From Actinomycetota bacterium (GTDB lineage Bacteria; Actinomycetota; Acidimicrobiia; Acidimicrobiales; RAAP-2): a stretch of 64,000 nt of DNA. The notes below the pieces were generated by a model. The model saw only the letters and a list, made by a program, of their open reading frames with translations, did no database searches and was not told where the DNA came from. The translations under genes were made by a program, and so were the position numbers. This document shows positions 7,248 through 50,991 of the stretch, one piece after another. The first letter of the stretch is position 1. Each line of letters begins with the position of its first letter. The DNA lies in NCBI GenBank assembly GCA_021324045.1, contig JAJPJV010000038.1, forward strand, positions 1 through 64,000. Direction: 5' to 3'.

Positions 7248-8607
7248 GGCGACCGTGACGGTCATCGGCGTCGCCGACGAGCGCGTCGAGCTGCTCCCCC
7301 CCGAAGCGAGGGACGCGCTGGGCAACGCCGAGGTCGTGGTGGGCGGTTCCCGACACCTCTCGCTGTGGCAACGCTGGGGAGCAACGGGTGCCTTCGGGCC
7401 CGCGGCGCCGGAACTCATCACGGTCGGAGTCGATGCCGACGAGATCGCCCGCGCGGTTCACCGGCTGGCCTTCGACGCCCGCCGAGCCGTCTGCGTGCTC
7501 GCTTCGGGGGATCCGGGGTTCTTCGGGATCACCAGAGCGCTCAACCGCTCCATCGACCGGCGTCGCCTGCGGATCATCCCTGCGCCCTCCGCAGTGTCCG
7601 TCGCCTTCGGACGACTCGGCCTTCCCTGGGACGATGCAACGGTGGTCTCCGCACACGGGCGGCACCTCCCCGACGCCGTTGCCGCCATCCGAGCAGCTTC
7701 CAAGGTCGGCGTCCTCACCTCGCCCGAGTGCCCGCCGGAAGCTATCGCCAAGGCGCTGCTCGATGCCGGCTGCACTGCGGATCTGGTCGCAGTGTGCAGT
7801 CGGCTCGGCACCGCCACCGAACGGGTCGAAGAGCTCTCCCTCCCCCAGGTCGCCTCGACGCACCACGATCCGCTCTCGGTCCTGGTGCTCGTCGGGCCGG
7901 GGGGGCTGCCACTCTGCGGTTGGTCCCCTGCCGCCCTGCAGGGCCATGGCCTGCGGGCACCGCAATCCTCCCCGATCGAGCCAGGCACCCGCCAGGACGC
8001 TGGCCGCATGCTCGCCTGGACCGCTCGAGGGCCCATCGAAGAACGCCGTGAGCCCGCCTTGGACCCCCAGCGCGTCGGGCGCTCCGACGCCGCCTACGCC
8101 CATCGCGGCGGGATGATCACCAAGCCTGAAGTCCGAGCCGTCGTCGTCGCGAAGCTCGACCTGCCTGCCACCGGGGTGCTCTGGGACGTCGGAGCAGGGA
8201 GTGGCAGCGTGGCGATCGAATGCGCGCTCGCACAACCGGGACTGTGCGTCCTGGCCATCGAGCAGCATGCAGACGACATCGCCCGCCTCGCCCAAAATGC
8301 TCGCAGCGCTGGCGTTCGCATCCACGCCATCACCGGTCACGCCCCCGAAGTGCTCGCCGATCTGCCCACCCCCGACCGGGTGTTCGTCGGCGGTGGAGGA
8401 CTCGGGGTCCTCGACGCGGTGCTGGAGCGGGTGCAGGAAGGAGGGCGGGTCGCTGCCACCTTCGCCGCGATCGACCGGGCGCTCGCCGCCGCTGATCGCC
8501 TCGGAAACCTCGTGCAGCTGAGCGTCGACCATGGGCGGCGACTCCCCGACGGATCGTGGCGTCTCGAAGCCGCCAACCCCGTCTTCCTCGCGTGGGGGTC
8601 GAGATGA
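7240..8607 (+). CDS. cbiET: Fused precorrin-6/7 C5,15-methyltransferase and C12-decarboxylase
   Basis: A 455-residue CobL-type fusion. The N-terminal half (about 1-215) is CbiE, a methylase-fold protein with ASGDPGFFGITR. The C-terminal part (about 260-455) is CbiT, with the SAM-binding motif WDVGAGSGSVAIE, and carries out C15 methylation and decarboxylation. The linker between them (about residues 215-255) carries no recognised motif. It starts with GTG at 7240, inside the end of cbiD. Its TGA is overlapped by an ATG (TGATG) opening a 40-codon frame before cbiGH. Confidence 0.92.
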   Translation: MDEATVTVIGVADERVELLPPEARDALGNAEVVVGGSRHLSLWQRWGATGAFGPAAPELITVGVDADEIARAVHRLAFDARRAVCVLASGDPGFFGITRALNRSIDRRRLRIIPAPSAVSVAFGRLGLPWDDATVVSAHGRHLPDAVAAIRAASKVGVLTSPECPPEAIAKALLDAGCTADLVAVCSRLGTATERVEELSLPQVASTHHDPLSVLVLVGPGGLPLCGWSPAALQGHGLRAPQSSPIEPGTRQDAGRMLAWTARGPIEERREPALDPQRVGRSDAAYAHRGGMITKPEVRAVVVAKLDLPATGVLWDVGAGSGSVAIECALAQPGLCVLAIEQHADDIARLAQNARSAGVRIHAITGHAPEVLADLPTPDRVFVGGGGLGVLDAVLERVQEGGRVAATFAAIDRALAAADRLGNLVQLSVDHGRRLPDGSWRLEAANPVFLAWGSR

Positions 8608-8729
8608 TGGTTGCCGTGGCGAGCGCGGCCCACCGTGGGGTGACCGCCACGGAGCGCAGCACGCCAGGACGACGGGTTCCAATGGTGACCGGCTCGACGA
8701 AGCCGACGACGCGGACGACCCCCCGATGA
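8607..8729 (+). CDS. Possible 40-residue coupling ORF between cbiET and cbiGH
   Basis: An ATG at 8607 overlaps the cbiET stop, and the frame closes at a TGA (8727-8729) that overlaps the ATG of cbiGH (ATGA). The peptide begins MVAVASAAHRGVTATERSTP and is rich in Arg, Thr and Ser; no domain is recognised. Exact junctions at both ends suggest it could carry ribosomes across the 118-base gap even if the peptide itself has no role. It may equally be a chance frame in GC-rich DNA. Confidence 0.3.
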   Translation: MVAVASAAHRGVTATERSTPGRRVPMVTGSTKPTTRTTPR

Positions 8730-10555
8730 ACGTGCTCGCCGTGTCGGTGACCGAGCCCGGTCGGCAACTTCTCGAGCGCCTGCCCTACCCCAGAGTGCAC
8801 GGCAACCCTCGTCAAACGCTCGAGGCGAACTGGGACCGGGTCGACGGATTCGTGGTCGCGCTCGCGCTCGGAGCGACCGTTCGCTTGATCGCCCCGTTGC
8901 TCTCGACCAAGCGGTGTGATCCTGCTGTGGTGTGCGTCGACGACGGAGGAAGCTTCGCGATCGCGCTCTGCGGCGGGCATGCGGCGGGTGGCAACGACCT
9001 CGCCAACGAGGTCGCTCAGCTGCTCGGCGCCACCCCCGTTGTCACGACCGCGAGCGACCGCTTCGGCATCCCTGCACTCGACCAGCTGCCGGGCTTCGTC
9101 GCCGAAGGAGCAGTCGCGTCCGTGAGCGCATGGATGCTCGCCGGTCGGCCTGTGCGCATCGAGAACCCCCTCGGCTGGCCACTTCCCAAGGCCCTCGAGG
9201 GGCGGCTGTCGGAAGTACTGGGCCCATCAGACCTCGTCGAAACCGTCCCCGAGCCCGGCACGGCCTCCGCCCCTGGCGGTGCCGGGCGCCCCGGCCCCAC
9301 CGCAACGAGCCCGGCCTCGACGCCCCTGCCCACCATCTTGGTGTCCGACACCGCCTCCGCACCGCCAGAAGCGCGCGCCAGCGATGGTCGCAGCACCGTC
9401 GTCCTGCACCCGGCGTCACTCGTCGTCGGCGTCGGAACCAGTAGCGACGCAACTCCAGACGAGCTCGAGGCCTGGGTGTCACTCGCCCTGGAGGAAGCGG
9501 GGCTGTCCCGGCATTCCGTCGGGACGCTCGCGACGATCGACCGCCGGGCTCGTCACCCGGCGATCCGCCACCTCGCCGACGCGTGGGGAGTCCGGGTCGA
9601 GACGTTCTCTGCAGCACAGCTCGCCGCGGTCGACGTCGCGGCCCCGAGTCCGGCCGTTGATCGAGCGGTCGGAACCCCCTCGGTGGCCGAGGCGGCTGCG
9701 TTGCTCGGGGCGGGCCGGGACGCCCAGCTCGTCGTGGGCAAGCGCGCGTCGGCGCGGACGACGGTCGCGATCGCCCGCCGGGCACGCCCGCCCGGGAGGC
9801 TCTCGGTCGTCGGGCTCGGTCCGGGTGCCGCCGAGCACCGAACGCCGGCGGCCGAGCGAGCGATCCGCAACGCCCAGGTCGTGATCGGCTACGCCCCGTA
9901 CGTCGAGCAATGTCGGGACCTGTTGCGCCCCGACCACGACGTCAGGAGCTATCCGATCGGAACGGAGCTCGACCGCGCCAGAACCGCCCTGGAGCTCGCG
10001 GCCGAGGGCTTCTCCGTGGCAGTGGTGTGCTCTGGCGATGCCGGCATCTACGCCATGGCAGGCCCGGTCTTCGAGGTCCTCGGGGACCTCTCGGTCCCCA
10101 GCGCGCGACACACCGGCCTGGCGATCGAGGTTGTCCCCGGCATCACGGCGGGGTCCGCTTCCGCGGCGCTGCTCGGAGCCCCCCTCGCGCACGACCACGT
10201 GGTACTGAGCCTGTCCGACCTGCTCACCCCTTGGCAACAGATCGAGGAACGTCTGCGGGCTGCTGCGGCCACCGACCTGGTCGTCGTCTTGTACAACCCA
10301 CGCTCGCAACGCCGCACGGAGCAACTCGAGAAAGCCAAAGCGATCCTGCTGGAGCATCGCAGTGCGCACACGCCCGTCGGGATGGTGAAGAACGCGAACC
10401 GGCCCGGCCAGGACGTGCTGGTCACCACGCTTGGCGAGCTCGCTTGCAACGCGGCCACGATGGTGACGTGCATCGTGGTGGGTTCCTCGAGGACGACGAC
10501 GGTCTGCGGAAGGATGGTGACCCCTCGCGGCTATTCACTCCCAGCTCCCCGATGA
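8726..10555 (+). CDS. cbiGH: Fused cobalt-precorrin-5A hydrolase (CbiG) and precorrin-3B C17-methyltransferase (CbiH)
   Basis: A 609-residue fusion. Residues 1 to about 335 are CbiG, which opens the delta-lactone of cobalt-precorrin-5A: LALGATVRLIAPLL and ALCGGHAAGGNDLANEVA mark its N-terminal domain, and GVGTSSDATPDELE its C-terminal domain, with a Pro/Ala/Thr-rich linker between them. Residues from about 350 are CbiH/CobJ, the ring-contraction methylase, with VVGLGPGAAEHRTPAAE, VCSGDAGIYAMAGP, VVPGITAGSAS and LYNPRSQRR. ATG 8726 was chosen over upstream starts since the CbiG homology begins at once (MNVLAVSVTEPG). It overlaps the ferredoxin gene by ATGA. Confidence 0.92.
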   Translation: MNVLAVSVTEPGRQLLERLPYPRVHGNPRQTLEANWDRVDGFVVALALGATVRLIAPLLSTKRCDPAVVCVDDGGSFAIALCGGHAAGGNDLANEVAQLLGATPVVTTASDRFGIPALDQLPGFVAEGAVASVSAWMLAGRPVRIENPLGWPLPKALEGRLSEVLGPSDLVETVPEPGTASAPGGAGRPGPTATSPASTPLPTILVSDTASAPPEARASDGRSTVVLHPASLVVGVGTSSDATPDELEAWVSLALEEAGLSRHSVGTLATIDRRARHPAIRHLADAWGVRVETFSAAQLAAVDVAAPSPAVDRAVGTPSVAEAAALLGAGRDAQLVVGKRASARTTVAIARRARPPGRLSVVGLGPGAAEHRTPAAERAIRNAQVVIGYAPYVEQCRDLLRPDHDVRSYPIGTELDRARTALELAAEGFSVAVVCSGDAGIYAMAGPVFEVLGDLSVPSARHTGLAIEVVPGITAGSASAALLGAPLAHDHVVLSLSDLLTPWQQIEERLRAAAATDLVVVLYNPRSQRRTEQLEKAKAILLEHRSAHTPVGMVKNANRPGQDVLVTTLGELACNAATMVTCIVVGSSRTTTVCGRMVTPRGYSLPAPR

Positions 10556-42050: not shown

Positions 42051-43898
42051 CTATGACCGAGCCCGGCTGCCCGGTGTGGCCGTCGCGCGCGGACGCCTCC
42101 CCGAACTCGCTCGCTTGCCAGCGAGGGTCGGTTTTGCCCCGTTGGACCCACGAGCTGGCGCGCGCACGGTCGCCGTCTTGGGATGGGCTCGATCTGCAGC
42201 TGGGGCGCCCCGATCAGCCAAGTAGCGATCGGCAGCCAAGGCAGCGCTCGCCCCGGCGCCTGCGGCGACAACGATCTGCTTCTCGGGCTCATCGGTCACG
42301 TCGCCGGCCGCGAAGAACCCTGCCACCGTGGTTGATTGATCTCGGCCAACGGGGATCTCGCCCTGGGCGTTGAGCTCCAAGAGCCCCGCGACCGGCTCGG
42401 TGTTCGGCACGAGACCGATCTCTAAGAACACGCCGTCGACTGCGAGGTCGACTCGCTCGCGGCCATCGGTCCCTTGGAGGCGGACTCCGGTCAACTCATC
42501 CTTGCCCAGGAACTCACGGACCTCTGTCGCCGGGTGCAGCGTCACCCGATCGGAGGCGGTGACGCGCTCCACGAGGAGCGGGTCCGCCTGCCAGTCCGGG
42601 AGGATGTTGATCAAATGGATCTCCCGAGCGAATGAGAGAAGGTCGCGGGCCGCCGTGAAGGCGGAGTTCCCGCCGCCGATGATTGCCACACGCTTGTCGT
42701 GGTACAGGGGGGCGTCACAGGTGGCGCAGAAACCGATGCCTCTGCCGATGAACCGTGCCTCACCGGGCACCCCTAGTCGACGGTAGGTTTTCCCGGCGGC
42801 GTAGATGACGCTTCGTGCCTGGTACCGGGAACCGTCGCTCGTGTGCACGACGAACCCTGCATCGCTGGCCTCAACGGCCTTCACCGTCGCGTCGAGGCGC
42901 TCGGCGACGTCGTAGCGCTCGACGTGGCTCCGGAACGCTGCTGCGAGGTCCATCCCGGAGATCTCAGGGATCCCGAGATAGTTCTCGACGAGGGCGGTGT
43001 CGGTCACCTGTCCCCCGGGGTGGTCGCCGACCACAGCGACGTCGCGTGCCTTTCGAGCGGCGTAGATCGCCGCAGAGAACGCGGCCGGACCGGCACCGAC
43101 GATCACGACGTCGTAGAGGTGATCGGCGTCGGCAGCATGAACGGCGCGCTCGCCGCGTTGCTGGCGAATCAAGGAATCAATCTGCTCGTAGGCCGCCGGG
43201 CTTGCGAGCTTGAGGATCTCGAGGATCGCCGCGGCTTCCGGGAGCGCGCCCTCGAAAGCCGGCCGCTCGTTGACGACCGTCCGGGGGACGCCACCCACCT
43301 CGTAGCGCTGAACGAGGTCCGGAAACTCCGCGGCGTCGACCATGTCGGAGCGGATCTGGTCGTTGGCAATTGCCATCTGATGTGCCAGGCGCACCATCTT
43401 CGGGCAATACGGACACGTCAAGGTGACCATGATCTCGAGGTGGGTTGGTTCGTCGATCATGCGCACCAGCTGCTCGAGCCCAGGTGGGAGCCCGGAGCGC
43501 CCGTCCGAAACGTTGCGGATCGCTTCAACAAGCGACGAAAACTCGTAGCCAGCGGTGACCCCGATGAAGCGTACGCCGTAGTCGCGAGCACCGACGACCG
43601 CTGTGGTCGGTACCCGGCTGACCCCGAAGGCCCGAACCTCCTCGGCATCTTCAATCAGGTCGCGCACTTCGAGCGAGAGCTTGCCGGAGAGCGCCACCAA
43701 CTCCTCGAGGAGCTGACGTTGCTCCCGGCAGGCAGCACAAGCCTGTTCCTGGGTGAAGAACACCAGCCGCACTGGCTCGCGGAGCGCTTCCAGCATCGGC
43801 TGGAGTTGTCGCCGGGTCTCTTCGTCGATGAGCTCGGCCGGAGCACGCTGCCTGGAAGTGGCCGTTGCCCTTGCCTCCTTTCTCCGCAACTTGGTCAT
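42051..43898 (-). CDS. Protein disulfide oxidoreductase-thioredoxin reductase fusion
   Basis: A 615-residue fusion. Residues about 25-240 are a two-thioredoxin-fold protein disulfide oxidoreductase (PDO/AhpF-N-like) with redox pairs CAAC (54-57) and CPYC (162-165). Residues about 260-560 are a low-molecular-weight thioredoxin reductase with YDVVIVGAGPAAFSAAIYAA, the redox pair CATC (391-394), NADPH loop VAIIGGGNSAFTAARDL and GFFAAGDVTDEP. A basic low-complexity tail of about 55 residues follows. The reductase probably reduces its own disulfide domains, which then pass electrons to proteins or a peroxidase. It diverges from putA. Confidence 0.9.
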   Translation of the reverse strand: MTKLRRKEARATATSRQRAPAELIDEETRRQLQPMLEALREPVRLVFFTQEQACAACREQRQLLEELVALSGKLSLEVRDLIEDAEEVRAFGVSRVPTTAVVGARDYGVRFIGVTAGYEFSSLVEAIRNVSDGRSGLPPGLEQLVRMIDEPTHLEIMVTLTCPYCPKMVRLAHQMAIANDQIRSDMVDAAEFPDLVQRYEVGGVPRTVVNERPAFEGALPEAAAILEILKLASPAAYEQIDSLIRQQRGERAVHAADADHLYDVVIVGAGPAAFSAAIYAARKARDVAVVGDHPGGQVTDTALVENYLGIPEISGMDLAAAFRSHVERYDVAERLDATVKAVEASDAGFVVHTSDGSRYQARSVIYAAGKTYRRLGVPGEARFIGRGIGFCATCDAPLYHDKRVAIIGGGNSAFTAARDLLSFAREIHLINILPDWQADPLLVERVTASDRVTLHPATEVREFLGKDELTGVRLQGTDGRERVDLAVDGVFLEIGLVPNTEPVAGLLELNAQGEIPVGRDQSTTVAGFFAAGDVTDEPEKQIVVAAGAGASAALAADRYLADRGAPAADRAHPKTATVRAPARGSNGAKPTLAGKRASSGRRPRATATPGSRARS

Positions 43899-44159
43899 GG
43901 CTTCGTCACGAACCGCTCACATGCTCCCCCACGACGCTGCACGGCGCCAGGGCCGAATGTCCCTTCGCCAGCGATTCCCGTCAGACAATGGCTCCCGGCG
44001 ACGCCGCAAGGCAACGCAACGACCGAGCCGCTGGCCGGTGCCAAAGGCCCTGTGGACCTCCGCCCATCGAAGCGGCTCAGCCGACGACCGGCACGGAACC
44101 CGTGCGCCATCATGTGCACACGCGGAGTTCACGGGGCTCCCGAACTCGTCTCCACCGGG

Positions 44160-44171: not shown

Positions 44172-47100
44172 ATGAATCAGGTTCCACCGGCGATTGCCGC
44201 CAACGACCAGGAGGTGGTCGACCGAGCCTTGACGCTCGCCGATCGACTCCTCGAGGCAACGCAGGCGGCGCCGACCCCGATCGGTCGGCGCCGCGAGGAG
44301 CGGTTGCGACGCATCCTTGCGAGCGAACAGGGACCGCGCCTGATCTTCGCGCTGGCCGATCGTGGGCTGCGGCCACCGGAGGCGAGGGCAGGGCTCCGCC
44401 AGCTGGCCCGACTGGCCTCGGGCGACCTCACCGCCCTAGAACCCGTCGATCGGCTCCTCGTGCGGGCGGCCACCGTCATCGGGCGCGTGCTGCCAACACC
44501 GGTCATGGCGGCCGTGCGCGCGAGGGTCCGCTACGAGACCCTCCCCCTCATCTTTCCTGCCGAACCCGGCCGCCTCAGTCGTGCGTTGCGGCGCGTGCGG
44601 GCCGCGGGCAGCCGGCCGAACCTGAACCTCCTCGGCGAGGCCATCCTGGGCGAGTCCGAGGCGCAGCGGCGCACCGATGCGATCGCGGCCCTGCTGTCCC
44701 GCCCCGACGTTGACTGCGTCTCGGTGAAGGTGTCGTCGTTGGCCTCCGGGCTGAGCTTGCTGGACACCGCCGGCTCTGTCGCTCGGATCAGCGAGCGCTT
44801 GGGACAGCTGTACCGGCTGGCACTTCAGACGAAGCCGACATCCCTGGTCGTCCTCGACATGGAGGCACACCCAGATCTCCATCTCACCCTCGAGGCGCTC
44901 CGCTTGGCCCTCGAGGATCCGGGCTTCGATGCGCTCGAGCTCGGTATCGCACTGCAGGCATACCTCCCCGACACCCACGCAGTGCTCGAGGACCTCCTGT
45001 CGTGGGGTCATGCGCGCTTCGATCGCGCAGGCCGCGGCATCTACGTTCGACTCGTCAAGGGTGCCAACCTCGCAATGGAACGCGTCGAGGCAGAACTTCA
45101 CGGGTGGCCCGCCGCACCGTATGCCACCAAGGCCGAGACCGACGCCTCGTACCTCCGGTTGCTCGACCGTTTGGTCCGGCCCGAGCACAGCCCGTGGCTA
45201 CGGGTGGGGCTCGGCACCCACAACCTTTTCTTCCTTTCCTACGGCGTGGCGCTGGCCGAGGCGCGCGGCATGGCCGGACGCGTCGGTCCGGAGATGCTCG
45301 CCGGTATGGCGGGGCGCCAAGCCGTCGCCACAGCCCGTTTGGTGGGCCAGGTGCTGCTGTACGTGCCCATCGCCGCCGATCGAGATCTCCACACCTCTAT
45401 CGCCTACCTCGCCCGGCGCCTCGACGAGAACGCAACCCCCGAAGGGTTCCTGCGCCATTCCCTCGAGTTCACCCCCCGGAGCAACGCCTGGCGGGAGCAG
45501 CGCACTCGCTTCTTGGCCGCGCTCCGCAGCGTGGAAACGGTCTCCACGACGCAGCGTCAAACCCAGGATCGCACTCGCCTTCCCGCTGCCGCCGCGCCCG
45601 GACCGACAACGGACCTCGCCGAAGACACCGTGCCCGCCGAGGAGCGTCCGCCGGAGTTCCGCAACGAGCCGGACACGGACCTCTCGGTCGGCGCGAACCG
45701 ACGATGGGCTCGCCAGGCACTTGCACGCGCGGGGCACCGCTCGGTTCCCGATGCCGACATCACCGCCGTCGAGCGCGCGCTGGACCGGGCAGGGGCAACG
45801 AGCTGGACGGCCACCACCACCGAGGATCGTCGCCACATTCTCCGCTCGGCTGCAGCGGTGATGGCCCGGGGCCGTCAGGAGGCGATCGCGGTCATGGCGA
45901 GCGAGACCGGGAAGACCTTCGAGGAGGCAGATCACGAAGTCTCGGAGGCCATCGACTATGCACGCTGGTACGCCGCCCAGACGCACCTCCTCGATGACCT
46001 TGCCTCCGAGGCGATCATGGAACCACTGGGCACCGTTGCCGTCGTGCCGCCATGGAACTTCCCCTACGCCATTCCGGCCAGCGGTGTACTTGCAGCGTTG
46101 GCGGCAGGCAACTCGGTCCTTCTCAAGCCCTCGCCTCAAGCGCGAGCTGTGAGCAGCCTTCTCGTCGACCAGCTGCAGCGCGCTGGCGTTCCCCACGATG
46201 CGGTCCAGCTCGTGGCCGCGCCCGACGGCGAGATCGGACGAAAGCTCGTCACCCACGAGGGAATCGCCGCGGTCGTGATGACGGGCTCGTGGGAGACGGC
46301 ACGGCGCTTCGCGCGGTGGCGCCCGGATCTGCGCCTCCTCGCAGAGACGAGCGGGAAAAACGCCATCGTCGTCTCCGCAACCGCCGACGTGGACCAAGCC
46401 GTCCGTGACATCGTCCACTCGGCCTTCTCCCACGCCGGACAGAAGTGCTCCGCAGCCAGCCTCGCCATCGTCGACGCCTCCGTCTACGACCGTTCGCCGT
46501 TCCTTCGCCAGCTCCAGGACGCGGTCGAAAGCCTCCGGGTCGGTGCTGCGAACGAACCGCGCACCCAGATCGGCCCGATCGTGGGCCCGTTCACCGATCG
46601 CCTCGAGCGAGCGCTCACGACGCTCGATCCTGGAGAATCCTGGCTCGTCGAGCCACGCTGCATCGACCACGATGCAGCGCTGTGGTCTCCGGGCGTCCGA
46701 CTCGGCGTACAACCGGGCAGCTGGGCACATACCACCGAGTGGTTCGGCCCCGTGCTCGGGGTGATGCGTGCATCGGACCTGCGAACTGCCATCGCCTGGC
46801 AGAACGCGGTGCCCTACGGCCTCACCGGGGGCCTGGAGTCCTTGGACCGGGATGAACAGCAGGCCTGGATCGACACAGTGGAGGTCGGAAATGCCTACAT
46901 CAACCGTCCGACCACCGGGGCAATCGTCGGGCGACAACCCTTCGGGGGCTGGAAGCGTTCAGCGTTCGGCCCGACGGCCAAGACCGGTGGTCCGAACTAC
47001 CTCTTGAACCTCGGGCGTTGGCGGGACACCGACCTGCGCAGCGTCTCGGAGGTCGAACGCTCCTACCGAGCGGCATGGGAGACGCACTTCTCGCTTCGAC

Positions 47101-47510
47101 ACGACCTGGCGGGGCTGCGATCCGAGGAGAACGTCCTCATCTACCGGCCGCTGCCCGGCGTCACGCTGCGGGTCAACGACGATGTCGATCCCGGCCAGAT
47201 CGCCCAGGCGATCCTTGCGGCCCGGCTCGCTGGAACGCCCTTGGAAATTTCCTCGCCGACCCCGGTTGCGAGCACCGGCGAAGCGGTGGTCGTCGAAACA
47301 AGCGAGAGCCTCGTAGCCCGCCTCGACGAGCACCGGCGCCTTCGCATCCTCGGTCCGCCAGAACCGCCCCTTCTCAGCGCCGCAGCAGCCAGAGGGATCA
47401 CTGTCTCGATGGATCCGCTCAGCGCGTCTGGCAGAGTGGAGCTTCCGAGATGGCTGCGAGAACAACTGGTGAGCCGCACTCGTCACCGCTACGGCAACCT
47501 GATGGAATGA
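44172..47510 (+). CDS. putA: Bifunctional proline dehydrogenase / P5C dehydrogenase
   Basis: PutA oxidises proline to pyrroline-5-carboxylate with FAD, then to glutamate with NAD. The 1112-residue protein has a proline dehydrogenase barrel (about 130-440: DVDCVSVKVSSLASGL, GIALQAYLPDTHAVLEDLL, YVRLVKGAN) and an aldehyde dehydrogenase domain (about 500-980) with VVPPWNFPYAIPASGVLAAL, the Glu in LLAETSGKNAIVV and the catalytic Cys in AFSHAGQKCSAASLAIVD. A C-terminal extension of about 130 residues follows. No N-terminal DNA-binding domain is present. It heads a run with ornithine cyclodeaminase and arginine-dihydrolase-like genes, and P5C may be channelled. Confidence 0.92.
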   Translation: MNQVPPAIAANDQEVVDRALTLADRLLEATQAAPTPIGRRREERLRRILASEQGPRLIFALADRGLRPPEARAGLRQLARLASGDLTALEPVDRLLVRAATVIGRVLPTPVMAAVRARVRYETLPLIFPAEPGRLSRALRRVRAAGSRPNLNLLGEAILGESEAQRRTDAIAALLSRPDVDCVSVKVSSLASGLSLLDTAGSVARISERLGQLYRLALQTKPTSLVVLDMEAHPDLHLTLEALRLALEDPGFDALELGIALQAYLPDTHAVLEDLLSWGHARFDRAGRGIYVRLVKGANLAMERVEAELHGWPAAPYATKAETDASYLRLLDRLVRPEHSPWLRVGLGTHNLFFLSYGVALAEARGMAGRVGPEMLAGMAGRQAVATARLVGQVLLYVPIAADRDLHTSIAYLARRLDENATPEGFLRHSLEFTPRSNAWREQRTRFLAALRSVETVSTTQRQTQDRTRLPAAAAPGPTTDLAEDTVPAEERPPEFRNEPDTDLSVGANRRWARQALARAGHRSVPDADITAVERALDRAGATSWTATTTEDRRHILRSAAAVMARGRQEAIAVMASETGKTFEEADHEVSEAIDYARWYAAQTHLLDDLASEAIMEPLGTVAVVPPWNFPYAIPASGVLAALAAGNSVLLKPSPQARAVSSLLVDQLQRAGVPHDAVQLVAAPDGEIGRKLVTHEGIAAVVMTGSWETARRFARWRPDLRLLAETSGKNAIVVSATADVDQAVRDIVHSAFSHAGQKCSAASLAIVDASVYDRSPFLRQLQDAVESLRVGAANEPRTQIGPIVGPFTDRLERALTTLDPGESWLVEPRCIDHDAALWSPGVRLGVQPGSWAHTTEWFGPVLGVMRASDLRTAIAWQNAVPYGLTGGLESLDRDEQQAWIDTVEVGNAYINRPTTGAIVGRQPFGGWKRSAFGPTAKTGGPNYLLNLGRWRDTDLRSVSEVERSYRAAWETHFSLRHDLAGLRSEENVLIYRPLPGVTLRVNDDVDPGQIAQAILAARLAGTPLEISSPTPVASTGEAVVVETSESLVARLDEHRRLRILGPPEPPLLSAAAARGITVSMDPLSASGRVELPRWLREQLVSRTRHRYGNLME

Positions 47511-47544
47511 ACGCTGCATCCCGGTCGACCCGCGACCTGAACCC

Positions 47545-48792
47545 ATGACCGCCCTTCCAGCACAGCCCGAGCGAGAACTGATCGAGCTCACGGGCCACAT
47601 CATCGACTCCCTGACGCTGGCCAAGATCCTCGACCTCATCCTCGAGGCCGGTGCCGACTACCGGATCATCGACGTCGACATCGGCCGCACCAACCTCGAT
47701 CCCAGCACCGTGCACCTCGAAGTCACGGCCTCGGACCATGACCTGCTCGCCGCGCTGGTCGAACGATTGCAGATCCACGGGGCCAACAGGGTCGCTCGGC
47801 AAGAAGCGGTCCTTGAACCTGCCGATCGCGATGGTGTCCTCCCGGTCGGTTTCTATGCGACGACCAACCTCCCCACTCGTGTGCTCATCAACGGGCGATG
47901 GCTCACCGTCGACAATCCCGAGATGGACTGCGGCCTTGTCGTCGACCAATCCACGATGACCGCACGGACCGTCCCGATGCATCGAATCAGAGCCGGTGAT
48001 CTCGTTGTCGTCGGCATGAGCGGTGTGGAGGTCGATGCACCCGAGCGGCCCCGTGGCGCCAGCCCCTTCGAATTCATGACCTCCGAGGTGTCGCCCGAGA
48101 AGCCGAAAGCATTGTTGGTTGCCGAGGTCGCCCGCCGGATCGGCGACGCCAAGCGCCATGGTGGGCGGGTTCTCGCCGTCTGCGGCCCGGCGGTGGTCCA
48201 CACCGGAGCCGCCTCTGAAGTTGCGCGCCTCGTGCACGACGGCTGGATCGACGTCCTGTTCGCCGGGAACGGCTTCGCCGCCCACGACATCGAGGCAAAC
48301 GTGCTGGGAACGTCGCTCGGCGTCTCCGTGGGGGAAGGTCGACCAGTCGAGCACGGCCATGCCAACCACCTGCGAGTGATCAACGAGATCCGACGCCGGG
48401 GATCGATCGCGGCCGCAGTCGATGACGGGTTCATCACCGGAGGCGTGATGTTCGAATGCGTCAAGCGAGGGGTCCCGTTCGTTCTCGCCGGTTCCATCCG
48501 CGATGACGGTCCGCTCCCCGAGGTGCAAACCGATGTGGTGGCGGCCGTCGATGCGATGCGCTCGCACCTTCACCGGGTGACCATCGCACTCATGCTGGCC
48601 TCGACGTTGCATTCGATCGCAACGGGCAACATCTTGCCTGCCGGCGTCGAAACCTACTGCGTCGACATCAATCCCGCCGTCGTCACCAAGCTCGGTGACC
48701 GTGGCAGTCACCAGGCCCTCGGAGTGGTCACAGACGTCGGGCTCTTCCTCCGTGACCTCGTCTCCTGCCTGCGCGACCGAGCTCATGGGTGA
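47545..48792 (+). CDS. Archaeal-type ornithine cyclodeaminase (TIGR00300, LOR/SDH-like)
   Basis: A 415-residue protein of the TIGR00300 group. ELTGHIIDSLTLAKILDLIL with VDIGRTNLDPSTVHLEVTA forms the N-terminal LOR/SDH-conserved domain. The rest holds the NAD-type fold (GGRVLAVCGPAVVHTGAAS, DVLFAGNGFAAHDIEANVLG, GHANHLRVINEIRRRGSI). Archaeal and cyanobacterial (AgrE C-terminal) members convert ornithine to proline with release of ammonia. It lies 34 bases after putA, so its proposed product is the substrate of PutA. The activity is inferred from family and neighbours. Confidence 0.82.
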   Translation: MTALPAQPERELIELTGHIIDSLTLAKILDLILEAGADYRIIDVDIGRTNLDPSTVHLEVTASDHDLLAALVERLQIHGANRVARQEAVLEPADRDGVLPVGFYATTNLPTRVLINGRWLTVDNPEMDCGLVVDQSTMTARTVPMHRIRAGDLVVVGMSGVEVDAPERPRGASPFEFMTSEVSPEKPKALLVAEVARRIGDAKRHGGRVLAVCGPAVVHTGAASEVARLVHDGWIDVLFAGNGFAAHDIEANVLGTSLGVSVGEGRPVEHGHANHLRVINEIRRRGSIAAAVDDGFITGGVMFECVKRGVPFVLAGSIRDDGPLPEVQTDVVAAVDAMRSHLHRVTIALMLASTLHSIATGNILPAGVETYCVDINPAVVTKLGDRGSHQALGVVTDVGLFLRDLVSCLRDRAHG

Positions 48793-48838
48793 GCACCGGC
48801 CCGGGCCCGGCAGAACCATGTGTTTGAACTGAGGCGAG

Positions 48839-49678
48839 ATGGCCGAGCTGACCTGGGGTCGCCGCTATCTCATGTGCCCGCCCCGCTACTTCGAAATCGC
48901 CTACGAGATCAATCCGTGGATGCACCGCGACGTCACAGTCGATCCTGACCGCGCACTCGCGCAGTGGGAAGGTTTGCGCAGAACCCTCGAGGAAGCCGGG
49001 GCCGACGTCGAGCTCCTCGATCCGGTTCCGGGGGCGCCCGATCTCGTGTTCACCGCGAACGCCGGCTTCGTGAACGCCGGTCGATTCGTACCCAGCAACT
49101 TCGCGCATCCCGAACGCCAGGTGGAGACGCCCCACGATCTGGCATGGTTCATTCAGCACGACTACCGCATCGATCGCCTCCCGGCGAACGTCCATTACGA
49201 AGGAGCGGGCGATTCACTCCCCTTCGGGAAAGTGCTCCTCGCTGGCTACCGCACACGATCCGACGCGGCCAGCCATGTCCATCTCTCCGCACTCTTGCAC
49301 GTTGCAGTCCGGTCCATCGAGTTACTCGACGATCGTCTCTACCACCTCGACCTCACCTTCTGTCCGCTGGACGAGCGTCGGGCGATCATTGCGCCGACCG
49401 CCTGGGATGCATACGGACGGCGAGTCGTCGCTTCGGTCGTCGCGGAGCCGCTCGTGCTGAGCGCCGACGAGGCTCTGTCCTTCTGTGCCAACTCGATCGT
49501 CGTCGGCAAGACCGTCATCATGCCCTGCTGCCCACCGCCAGTCGGGCGACAGCTGGAGCGCTGGGGTTTTGACGTCGCGATCTGCGCGGTGGATGAGTTC
49601 CTCAAAGCTGGCGGCGGATGCCGGTGCTTGACCCTCCCTCTCGACATCGACCTCACGACCTCGGTGTCGCCAGGGTGA
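48839..49678 (+). CDS. Arginine dihydrolase-like (GME/DDAH-fold) enzyme
   Basis: A 279-residue guanidino-group-modifying enzyme. Conserved residues are the Asn in VFTANAGFV (residue 74), Glu/Asp in YEGAGD (121-125), the His in YHLDLTFCPL (169) and the nucleophilic Cys in GGGCRCLTLPL (263). The spacing closely matches the N-terminal domain of cyanobacterial ArgZ/AgrE, which hydrolyses arginine to ornithine, ammonia and CO2; DDAH activity is the main alternative. Placed after the ornithine cyclodeaminase, it would supply ornithine. ATG 48839 has GAGGCGAG upstream. Confidence 0.8.
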   Translation: MAELTWGRRYLMCPPRYFEIAYEINPWMHRDVTVDPDRALAQWEGLRRTLEEAGADVELLDPVPGAPDLVFTANAGFVNAGRFVPSNFAHPERQVETPHDLAWFIQHDYRIDRLPANVHYEGAGDSLPFGKVLLAGYRTRSDAASHVHLSALLHVAVRSIELLDDRLYHLDLTFCPLDERRAIIAPTAWDAYGRRVVASVVAEPLVLSADEALSFCANSIVVGKTVIMPCCPPPVGRQLERWGFDVAICAVDEFLKAGGGCRCLTLPLDIDLTTSVSPG

Positions 49679-49691
49679 CCACGGTCGTGAC

Positions 49692-49710
49692 CTTCGGCCC
49701 TAGGCCGAAG
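49692..49710 (+). terminator. Hairpin after the arginine/proline operon
   Basis: CTTCGGCC (49692-49699), loop CTA, GGCCGAAG (49703-49710) form a perfect stem 14 bases past the stop of the dihydrolase-like gene. No T-run follows. It is the likely end of the putA operon. Confidence 0.5.
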
Positions 49711-49866
49711 TCGGGACCTTTGCGAGGCTGGTCTTGGAGCGCAGACCGTCGGTCCGAGAGGAGCGAATGCCGTGATGCACCGAGGACAGAACTGGGTGAT
49801 CCGGATCGCCTGCCGTTGCCGGGCAGTACTGACCGGCCGGGCCCCCGGCGCCAGCTGCGCGCCTGA

Positions 49867-49892: not shown

Positions 49893-49929
49893 CTCCTTGC
49901 GACCCTGCCGGACGAAAGACCCGCCGCCG

Positions 49930-50991
49930 ATGGACCGTCGTGCCGTGACCGCCACGCCTGGCGCCCTTTCGCCGGGCGAGCTGGACACATCGAAGCCGCT
50001 GACCGCGGTGCCACAGCGCTCCCTCGCCATCGAGGTCTCAGCGCTCTCCAAGCGCTACGGAGAGGTACAAGCGGTGCACAGTGTCTCCTTCTCGGTCGAG
50101 CGCGGTGAGGTCTTCGCCTTTCTCGGCCCCAACGGGGCTGGGAAATCCACGACCATCAAGATGCTGTGCACCTTGGCTCGGCCCTCGGCCGGCCGCGCGA
50201 GGGTGGCTGGCTTCGACGTGGTCCGCCAGCCCAAGGCCGTGCGGCGGCACATCGGCCTGGTCTTCCAGGACCAGACCCTCGACGACCAGCTGACCGCGGA
50301 GGAAAACCTGCGCTTCCACGCCGTCCTCTACCGGGTGCCACACGACCAGGTGGCGCGGCGCATCGACCGAGTCCTTCGGCTGGTAGCGCTCGAGGACCGT
50401 CGCCGTGACCTCGTCGGGACCTTCTCGGGCGGCATGGCTCGGCGACTGGAGATCGCCCGGGGAATGCTCCATACCCCCTCAGTGCTGTTCCTGGACGAGC
50501 CCACCGTCGGTCTCGACCCGCAAACCCGGGCGCTGATGTGGGAAGACGTGCTGCGGATGCGCCGGGAGGAAGGGGTGACGATCTTTCTCACCACCCACTA
50601 CATGGACGAGGCCGAATACGCAGATCGGATCGCCATCATCGATCACGGGCAGATCGTGGCCCTCGACACCCCCGATCAACTCAAGCACCAGGTCGCTGCG
50701 GATGCGGTGGAGCTCGTCACCGCAGACGACGTCGTCGCCGAGCAGCGCCTGGCCGCGGCCGGATTCCAGGTGCGCCGAGACCCGGAGCGTCTCGTGATCT
50801 TCACCGCCAACGGCGAGGCCCAGGTCGCCAGGATCGTCGAGTCGGCCGGCGTCGCTGTGAGGAACGTCCACGTCCACCGGCCGACCCTCGACGACGTGTT
50901 CTTGCACTACACCGGGCGCCAGATCCGAGAGGGTCCCGCCGAACGTTCCGTTGCGATGCCTCTTCGAGCACGCATGACCCGCCGCCGCTAG
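49930..50991 (+). CDS. DrrA-type ABC exporter ATPase
   Basis: About 353 residues. After 35 poorly conserved residues the ABC domain has ALSKRYGEVQAVHSVSFSVE, Walker A GPNGAGKSTTIKML, Q-loop IGLVFQDQTLDDQLTAEENL, signature FSGGMARRLEIA, Walker B VLFLDEPTVGLD and H-loop FLTTHYMDEAEYADR. The C-terminal part (to RPTLDDVFLHYTGR) is the DrrA tail. It partners the membrane protein seven bases downstream to export an unknown compound or drug. The start is uncertain between ATG 49930 and TTG 49897. Confidence 0.88.
   Translation: MDRRAVTATPGALSPGELDTSKPLTAVPQRSLAIEVSALSKRYGEVQAVHSVSFSVERGEVFAFLGPNGAGKSTTIKMLCTLARPSAGRARVAGFDVVRQPKAVRRHIGLVFQDQTLDDQLTAEENLRFHAVLYRVPHDQVARRIDRVLRLVALEDRRRDLVGTFSGGMARRLEIARGMLHTPSVLFLDEPTVGLDPQTRALMWEDVLRMRREEGVTIFLTTHYMDEAEYADRIAIIDHGQIVALDTPDQLKHQVAADAVELVTADDVVAEQRLAAAGFQVRRDPERLVIFTANGEAQVARIVESAGVAVRNVHVHRPTLDDVFLHYTGRQIREGPAERSVAMPLRARMTRRR

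Follow-up and report, generated by a model that had tools for sequence, protein, structure and literature searches.

Gene Organization and Predicted Products

A 64,000-nucleotide stretch from an Actinomycetota bacterium (GenBank assembly GCA_021324045.1, contig JAJPJV010000038.1, positions 1 to 64,000 of the forward strand; hereafter, the window) was analyzed for a run of three plus-strand genes with a predicted role in arginine use. The first gene, putA (44172–47510), encodes a bifunctional proline dehydrogenase/glutamate-semialdehyde (1-pyrroline-5-carboxylate, P5C) dehydrogenase of 1112 residues with Pro_dh and Aldedh domains, which is predicted to convert proline to P5C and then to glutamate. 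The second gene (47545–48792) encodes an ornithine cyclodeaminase (OCD) of the LOR/SDH or TIGR00300 family. This 415-residue protein corresponds to the C-terminal region of AgrE/ArgZ as a protein in its own right and is predicted to convert ornithine to proline and NH3. The third gene (48839–49678) encodes an ArgZ-like guanidino hydrolase of 279 residues; its predicted structure, its residues and its gene partners point to an arginine dihydrolase that would form ornithine, CO2 and two NH3. The intergenic gaps are 34 bp between putA and the OCD gene and 46 bp between the OCD and hydrolase genes, and no gene lies in between. The run is very probably a three-gene arginine-utilization operon, in which arginine would pass through ornithine and proline to glutamate by a modular version of the cyanobacterial AgrE–PutA route, with its fused enzyme split in two. 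The initial annotation, made from the DNA letters without database searches, had placed three genes of one run at these coordinates in a probable actinobacterium. The open reading frames were found exactly there, the order of putA, OCD and hydrolase genes was opposite to the pathway order as claimed, and the closest relatives were Acidimicrobiia records.

The families named in that annotation (PutA, TIGR00300 OCD and an arginine-dihydrolase-like enzyme) agreed with the Pfam, NCBI profile and structure comparisons. The two PutA domains were above the Pfam cut-off in one chain (Pro_dh, 167.6 bits; Aldedh, 331 bits). The motifs GQKC (aldehyde dehydrogenase, with Cys759), ETSGKN and YLARRL (proline dehydrogenase) were present, the motif positions being 412, 725 and 756. 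The closest solved structure was that of the PutA 5ux5 (E 4e-227), to which the protein was closer than to the NCBI equivalog PRK11904 (365 bits, under the cut-off of 747 bits). The OCD scored 493 bits against TIGR00300, above the NCBI equivalog cut-off of 410.8, with positions 5–404 of 407 covered, and it aligned along AgrE residues 284–688 (E 2e-103). Across 67 relatives, 55 positions were at least 99% conserved, Lys382 among them. The archaeal TIGR00300-type protein 3c2q, of the OCD family, also stands alone and shares this conserved core (E 1e-94).

Predicted Fold and Active Site of the Hydrolase

The hydrolase scored 233 bits against the arginine dihydrolase model NF052232 (cut-off 450) and 224 bits against NF045659, the dimethylargininase model of the Mycobacterium tuberculosis type (cut-off 300). 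Further evidence was needed for the family call because the two scores were nearly equal and both below the cut-off, and for the latter reason the protein was filed as a sister lineage and not as an equivalog member. The structure was predicted from a 33-row alignment (pLDDT 96), and a single-sequence AlphaFold model (pLDDT 36) was discarded. The predicted structure matched ArgZ/AgrE with Z values of 41.8–42.5 and root-mean-square deviations of 1.1–1.3 over 265–268 residues. The Z values were 30.8 for dimethylargininase (DDAH), 28.2 for the N-succinylarginine dihydrolase AstB and approximately 26 for arginine deiminase (ADI), and the Foldseek results agreed.

The residues D68, N74, E121, D125, R140, H169, D171 and C263 were identical in the window hydrolase, AgrE and ArgZ. 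These eight positions matched ArgZ/AgrE in all labelled non-DDAH rows that were checked, one row being without the Cys column owing to a gap. Two DDAH-like rows had Asp at the Asn74 position, and one of them (L196) had HLK instead of HLD. The initial annotation had stated that Asn74, His169 and Cys263 were kept as in ArgZ; they aligned with the catalytic residues of ArgZ/AgrE, in a fold with a Z value of approximately 42. The roles of the residues were taken from PDB titles, mutated PDB sequences and PMC11659421. The corresponding positions were mutated in the PDB entries 6juz (Asn; N71S), 6jv1 (Cys; C264S) and 6lrh (Cys; C264A), and the ArgZ N71S structure 6juz traps a covalent intermediate according to its title. 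In ADIs, the guanidino group is bound by the Asp that follows the catalytic His, a position held by Lys in DDAHs; across from it, on the other side of this group, a second Asp is present in both families (PMC11659421). Our alignment suggests that this second Asp is the equivalent of Asn74. The DDAH signature is Lys after His-Leu with Asp at the first guanidino-binding position, where the window hydrolase has Asp171 and Asn74 instead; the ADI signature is a pair of Asp residues flanking the guanidino group, one of which is replaced by Asn74 here. Hence, on account of Asn74 and Asp171, the residue pattern lacked both signatures and matched ArgZ.

Gene Partners of the Hydrolase in Other Genomes

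A scan of the genome collection with the window hydrolase gave 80 loci, in most of which an OCD gene was directly upstream on the same strand. The hits to the two genes were no more than 204 bp apart in all but one of the 62 cases. The arrangement was not due to chance because the pair recurred in tens of distinct loci with short gaps. Of 137 distinct sequences, 61 had OCD as the neighbor of the hydrolase and 20 had ornithine aminotransferase (OAT). The pair was found in records of Acidimicrobiia, Planctomycetota, Myxococcota-like ‘Deltaproteobacteria’, Armatimonadota, Nitrospirota and Omnitrophota, and therefore it was not peculiar to the window's genome. Thus, the operon that had been ascribed to a probable actinobacterium stood as to the run and its linkage, but the pair is widespread in several phyla, with PutA only an occasional third member. 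Among the 296 genomes of the window's class, a strong hydrolase match was present in 12 of the 14 genomes that encode OCD (p = 5e-8; this and the other co-occurrence p-values overstate independence because the genomes are related). Hydrolase loci without an adjacent OCD gene came from genomes encoding OCD elsewhere in 11 of 18 cases. The flanking genes of some loci with neither OCD nor OAT (Chloroflexi, Planctomycetes and others) revealed no consistent partner. Two class members, L128 (G116) and L129 (G330), encode OCD without a strong hydrolase match, and for this reason their OCD would have another ornithine source. Within the family of the window's genome (f1, 37 genomes searched), OCD was found in the window's genome (G000) only, which suggests gain by transfer or repeated loss in the family.

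In actinobacterial genomes found with the M. tuberculosis-type model, a class III aminotransferase often adjoined the hydrolase. The aminotransferase neighbors that were scanned were OATs, above the TIGR01885 cut-off in seven of seven cases. In a tree of 117 hydrolase sequences, the OCD-linked and OAT-linked forms were interleaved, with three partner changes, and the window hydrolase's own clade (43 rows, SH-aLRT 99, starred) held both forms. This tree was a quick search without bootstrap in which many inner forks were weak, the mixed clade itself being starred. Since two non-homologous ornithine-consuming enzymes alternate beside the hydrolase, its product would be ornithine and not citrulline. 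This alternation of OCD and OAT is the best evidence for ornithine as the probable product.

The three-gene linkage was found in other genomes as well. The order PutA–OCD–hydrolase with a related PutA occurred at L013 (52% identity) and at L019 (at a contig edge), and other PutA types were beside the OCD–hydrolase pair at L050, L055, L070 and L138. PutA was seemingly recruited more than once because these types differ (approximately 30–53% identity). Ten other hydrolase loci had a proline dehydrogenase domain, in either orientation, no more than 6 kb away. Furthermore, in 12 loci (including L012, L015, L018, L022, L027, L035, L036, L039, L062 and L137), the pair had a glutamate dehydrogenase gene upstream in divergent orientation. 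The window's own genome had no arginase/agmatinase-family gene (PF00491) and no OAT above the cut-off; the best match to the OAT model, with 310 bits, is probably ArgD.

Proposed Pathway and Alternative Interpretations

In the proposed pathway, the 48839–49678 enzyme would hydrolyze the guanidino group of arginine twice to give ornithine, CO2 and two ammonia, with Cys263 as the nucleophile, His169 as the base and Asn74 permitting the second round as in ArgZ. The 47545–48792 enzyme would then cyclize ornithine to proline with the release of a third ammonia, and PutA (44172–47510) would oxidize proline to P5C and glutamate. The net conversion would be arginine to glutamate, CO2 and three NH3, that is, the chemistry of AgrE and PutA, but with a gene of its own for each of the first two enzymes. 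In cyanobacteria, AgrE and PutA take arginine first to proline, releasing one CO2 and three NH4+, and from there to glutamate (PMC8262935). AgrE/ArgZ (Anabaena Alr4995, Synechocystis Sll1336) followed by PutA has the same two catalytic parts, active-site residues and predicted route. However, the two activities are fused in AgrE/ArgZ, whereas in the window each has its own gene, the OCD gene preceding that of the hydrolase and both following putA in the run, and the window hydrolase was outside the AgrE/ArgZ tree branch as well as under the NCBI arginine dihydrolase cut-off. AstB of Escherichia coli has the same fold and hydrolyzes a guanidino group twice, but it acts on succinylated arginine in the arginine succinyltransferase (AST) pathway and is larger and structurally more distant. 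The run represents a known pathway in split, modular form and not a new kind of system. It extends the AgrE–PutA pathway of cyanobacteria, in a predicted unfused form, to Acidimicrobiia and other phyla. The partner-swapping evidence, a likely misannotation of actinobacterial dimethylargininases and a likely link to LarBCE are added here.

Several points weigh against this interpretation. The hydrolase was well under the NF052232 cut-off and only approximately 40% identical to ArgZ, and no activity data were found for any stand-alone member of its clade. Scans of the run for sigma-70-like promoters and terminators gave nothing above shuffled sequences; with neither placed, spacing and orientation are what suggest the co-transcription of putA, the OCD gene and the hydrolase gene. 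PutA was not a regular neighbor, since a nearby proline dehydrogenase domain was present in 5 of 30 well-covered OCD loci. Moreover, the gene absences in the window's genome are provisional because the assembly is a 52-contig draft that is approximately 96% complete.

It is very unlikely that the hydrolase is a DDAH forming citrulline from methylarginines, with an incidental OCD linkage. The NCBI name of the closest actinobacterial sister family, NF045659, is indeed ‘dimethylargininase’, with a score of 224 bits near the 233 bits of the arginine dihydrolase model, and Rv2323c of M. tuberculosis is again called a DDAH in a review (PMC11008464). In the window hydrolase, however, Asn74 and Asp171 replace the DDAH Asp and Lys, respectively, the Z value of the fold was 11 units lower against DDAH than against ArgZ, and the gene partners consume ornithine, not citrulline. 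The phenotype of the Rv2323c mutant also concerns arginine itself (PMC4569260). Residues, fold and ornithine-using partners thus led to the rejection of DDAH as the main assignment, and the residues and partners likewise disfavor methylarginine or agmatine as the substrate. An ADI, which would perform a single round to citrulline and leave ornithine to other enzymes, belongs to the same guanidino-modifying superfamily with a Cys-His-Glu core, and Asp171 is as in ADIs. This assignment is nevertheless highly improbable and was rejected as the main one, given that ADIs keep Asp at the Asn74 position (the residue altered in the intermediate-trapped ArgZ N71S structure 6juz), that the ADI fold was more distant and that the ornithine-consuming neighbors do not use citrulline. 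There is similarly little chance that the three genes are neighbors by accident, historical or otherwise, with PutA serving only exogenous proline. The infrequent presence of PutA beside OCD–hydrolase loci and the occurrence of OCD in a single genome of the window's family would fit such an accident; the tight same-strand spacing with no gene between, and the recurrence with related PutA at two loci and other PutA types at four, do not, and chance adjacency was rejected as the main explanation on these grounds.

Relation to the Rv2323c-Type Family

In M. tuberculosis, rocD is broken and no arginase homologue is present; Rv2323c, annotated as a DDAH, is needed for the arginine-to-proline flux by an unknown mechanism, and its loss blocks this flux (PMC4569260). 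The Rv2323c/NF045659 proteins of mycobacteria and Streptomyces are on the same hydrolase superfamily branch as the window hydrolase. The members that were read had the Asn/Asp/His/Cys pattern, the genes often adjoin the ornithine-consuming rocD, and a role in arginine use is established by knock-out (PMC4569260). They differ in having OAT and not OCD as the partner, and they were approximately 35–39% identical to the window hydrolase. Proteins above the NF045659 cut-off with the ArgZ-type Asn and the HLD motif, many adjoining OAT, were observed at L145–L165 and L179–L188; the ‘dimethylargininase’ name is probably wrong for them. Residues and gene partners suggest that the Rv2323c-type family is an arginine dihydrolase, as judged from NF045659 members in actinobacterial genomes and annotated plasmids and not from the Rv2323c sequence itself. 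No paper pairing Rv2323c with ‘dihydrolase’ was found in the literature search.

There is a good likelihood that stand-alone arginine dihydrolases make up one large bacterial family, the actinobacterial Rv2323c-type ‘dimethylargininases’ among them, and that this family feeds ornithine to interchangeable second enzymes. These would be the (probably nickel-pincer) OCD in Acidimicrobiia and several other phyla or OAT in other actinobacteria; the cyanobacterial AgrE fusion would be one particular form of this arrangement, and ‘dimethylargininase’ would be a misnomer in all of these groups. If true, this would provide a testable answer to the question raised in PMC4569260, namely, how M. tuberculosis makes ornithine and proline via Rv2323c without a recognizable arginase.

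Cofactor of the Ornithine Cyclodeaminase

Two nicotinamide-type nucleotides come into question as the cofactor of the OCD: NAD+, which was present in the AgrE crystal, and the nickel-pincer nucleotide (NPN), which appears in the NCBI name. The use of NPN in place of NAD+, for which the pathway would need LarB, LarC and LarE, is compatible with the proposed pathway and is somewhat favored. NCBI names TIGR00300 ‘nickel-pincer nucleotide-dependent’, and a single 6 kb stretch of the window's genome carries the genes for LarB, LarC and LarE. Within the class, LarC was present in 13 of 14 OCD-encoding genomes versus 60 of the 282 others (p = 6e-8); the OCD-encoding genome without LarC was a fragmented assembly with 8% contamination. 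Among the 296 genomes, a single one (G063) had LarC without a LarA-type match, and it encodes OCD. The Lys382 conserved in the 67 OCDs is a possible tether for NPN. On the other hand, AgrE was crystallized with ornithine and NAD+ (title of 6lrg), most OCD-encoding genomes carry LarA too, which is the usual reason for having LarBCE, and no paper stating NPN dependence of the TIGR00300 OCD was found in the literature search. Across phyla, the association of OCD with LarC was weaker (25 of 33 versus 2 of 7, p = 0.03), with a LarC match absent in 8 of 33 OCD-encoding genomes whose completeness is not known. The three Lar genes in the genome and the co-occurrence of OCD with LarC support the nickel-pincer label given by NCBI. 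The co-occurrence also supports a second enzyme class, beyond LarA, for this cofactor. At the lar locus (L093, G000:C49, 5990–11774), larB and larC overlap; larE, on the other strand, is approximately 3 kb off, and a formamidopyrimidine-glycosylase-like gene separates it from them.

Flanking Regions and Other Members of the Class

The gene 5′ of putA (42051–43898) is on the minus strand, and an ABC transporter ATPase gene (49897–50991, plus strand) begins 218 bp 3′ of the hydrolase gene; the three-gene run is self-contained in view of both. No regulator is claimed for the run because a search with a DosR-like motif gave 25 matches versus 19.5 expected. A strong hairpin without a T-run, CTTCGGCCCTAGGCCGAAG, is at 49687–49715, directly 3′ of the hydrolase stop codon and 5′ of the ABC transporter gene. 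A motif resembling it, GGGACATTCGGCCC, is 5′ of putA at 43950, and the count of this type of motif across the window was not above chance.

Elsewhere in the class, the genomes of family f43 (G064, G096, G224 and 35 others; L125–L127) are of approximately 1 Mb or less, with 35% GC in the three stretches checked. They keep a diverged stand-alone hydrolase (approximately 35% identity) and have no OCD and no LarC match. By far the highest score in the class against the arginine dihydrolase model, 371 bits, was that of a stand-alone hydrolase at L131 (G287; 8418–9272, minus strand), which grouped with AgrE/ArgZ on the tree.

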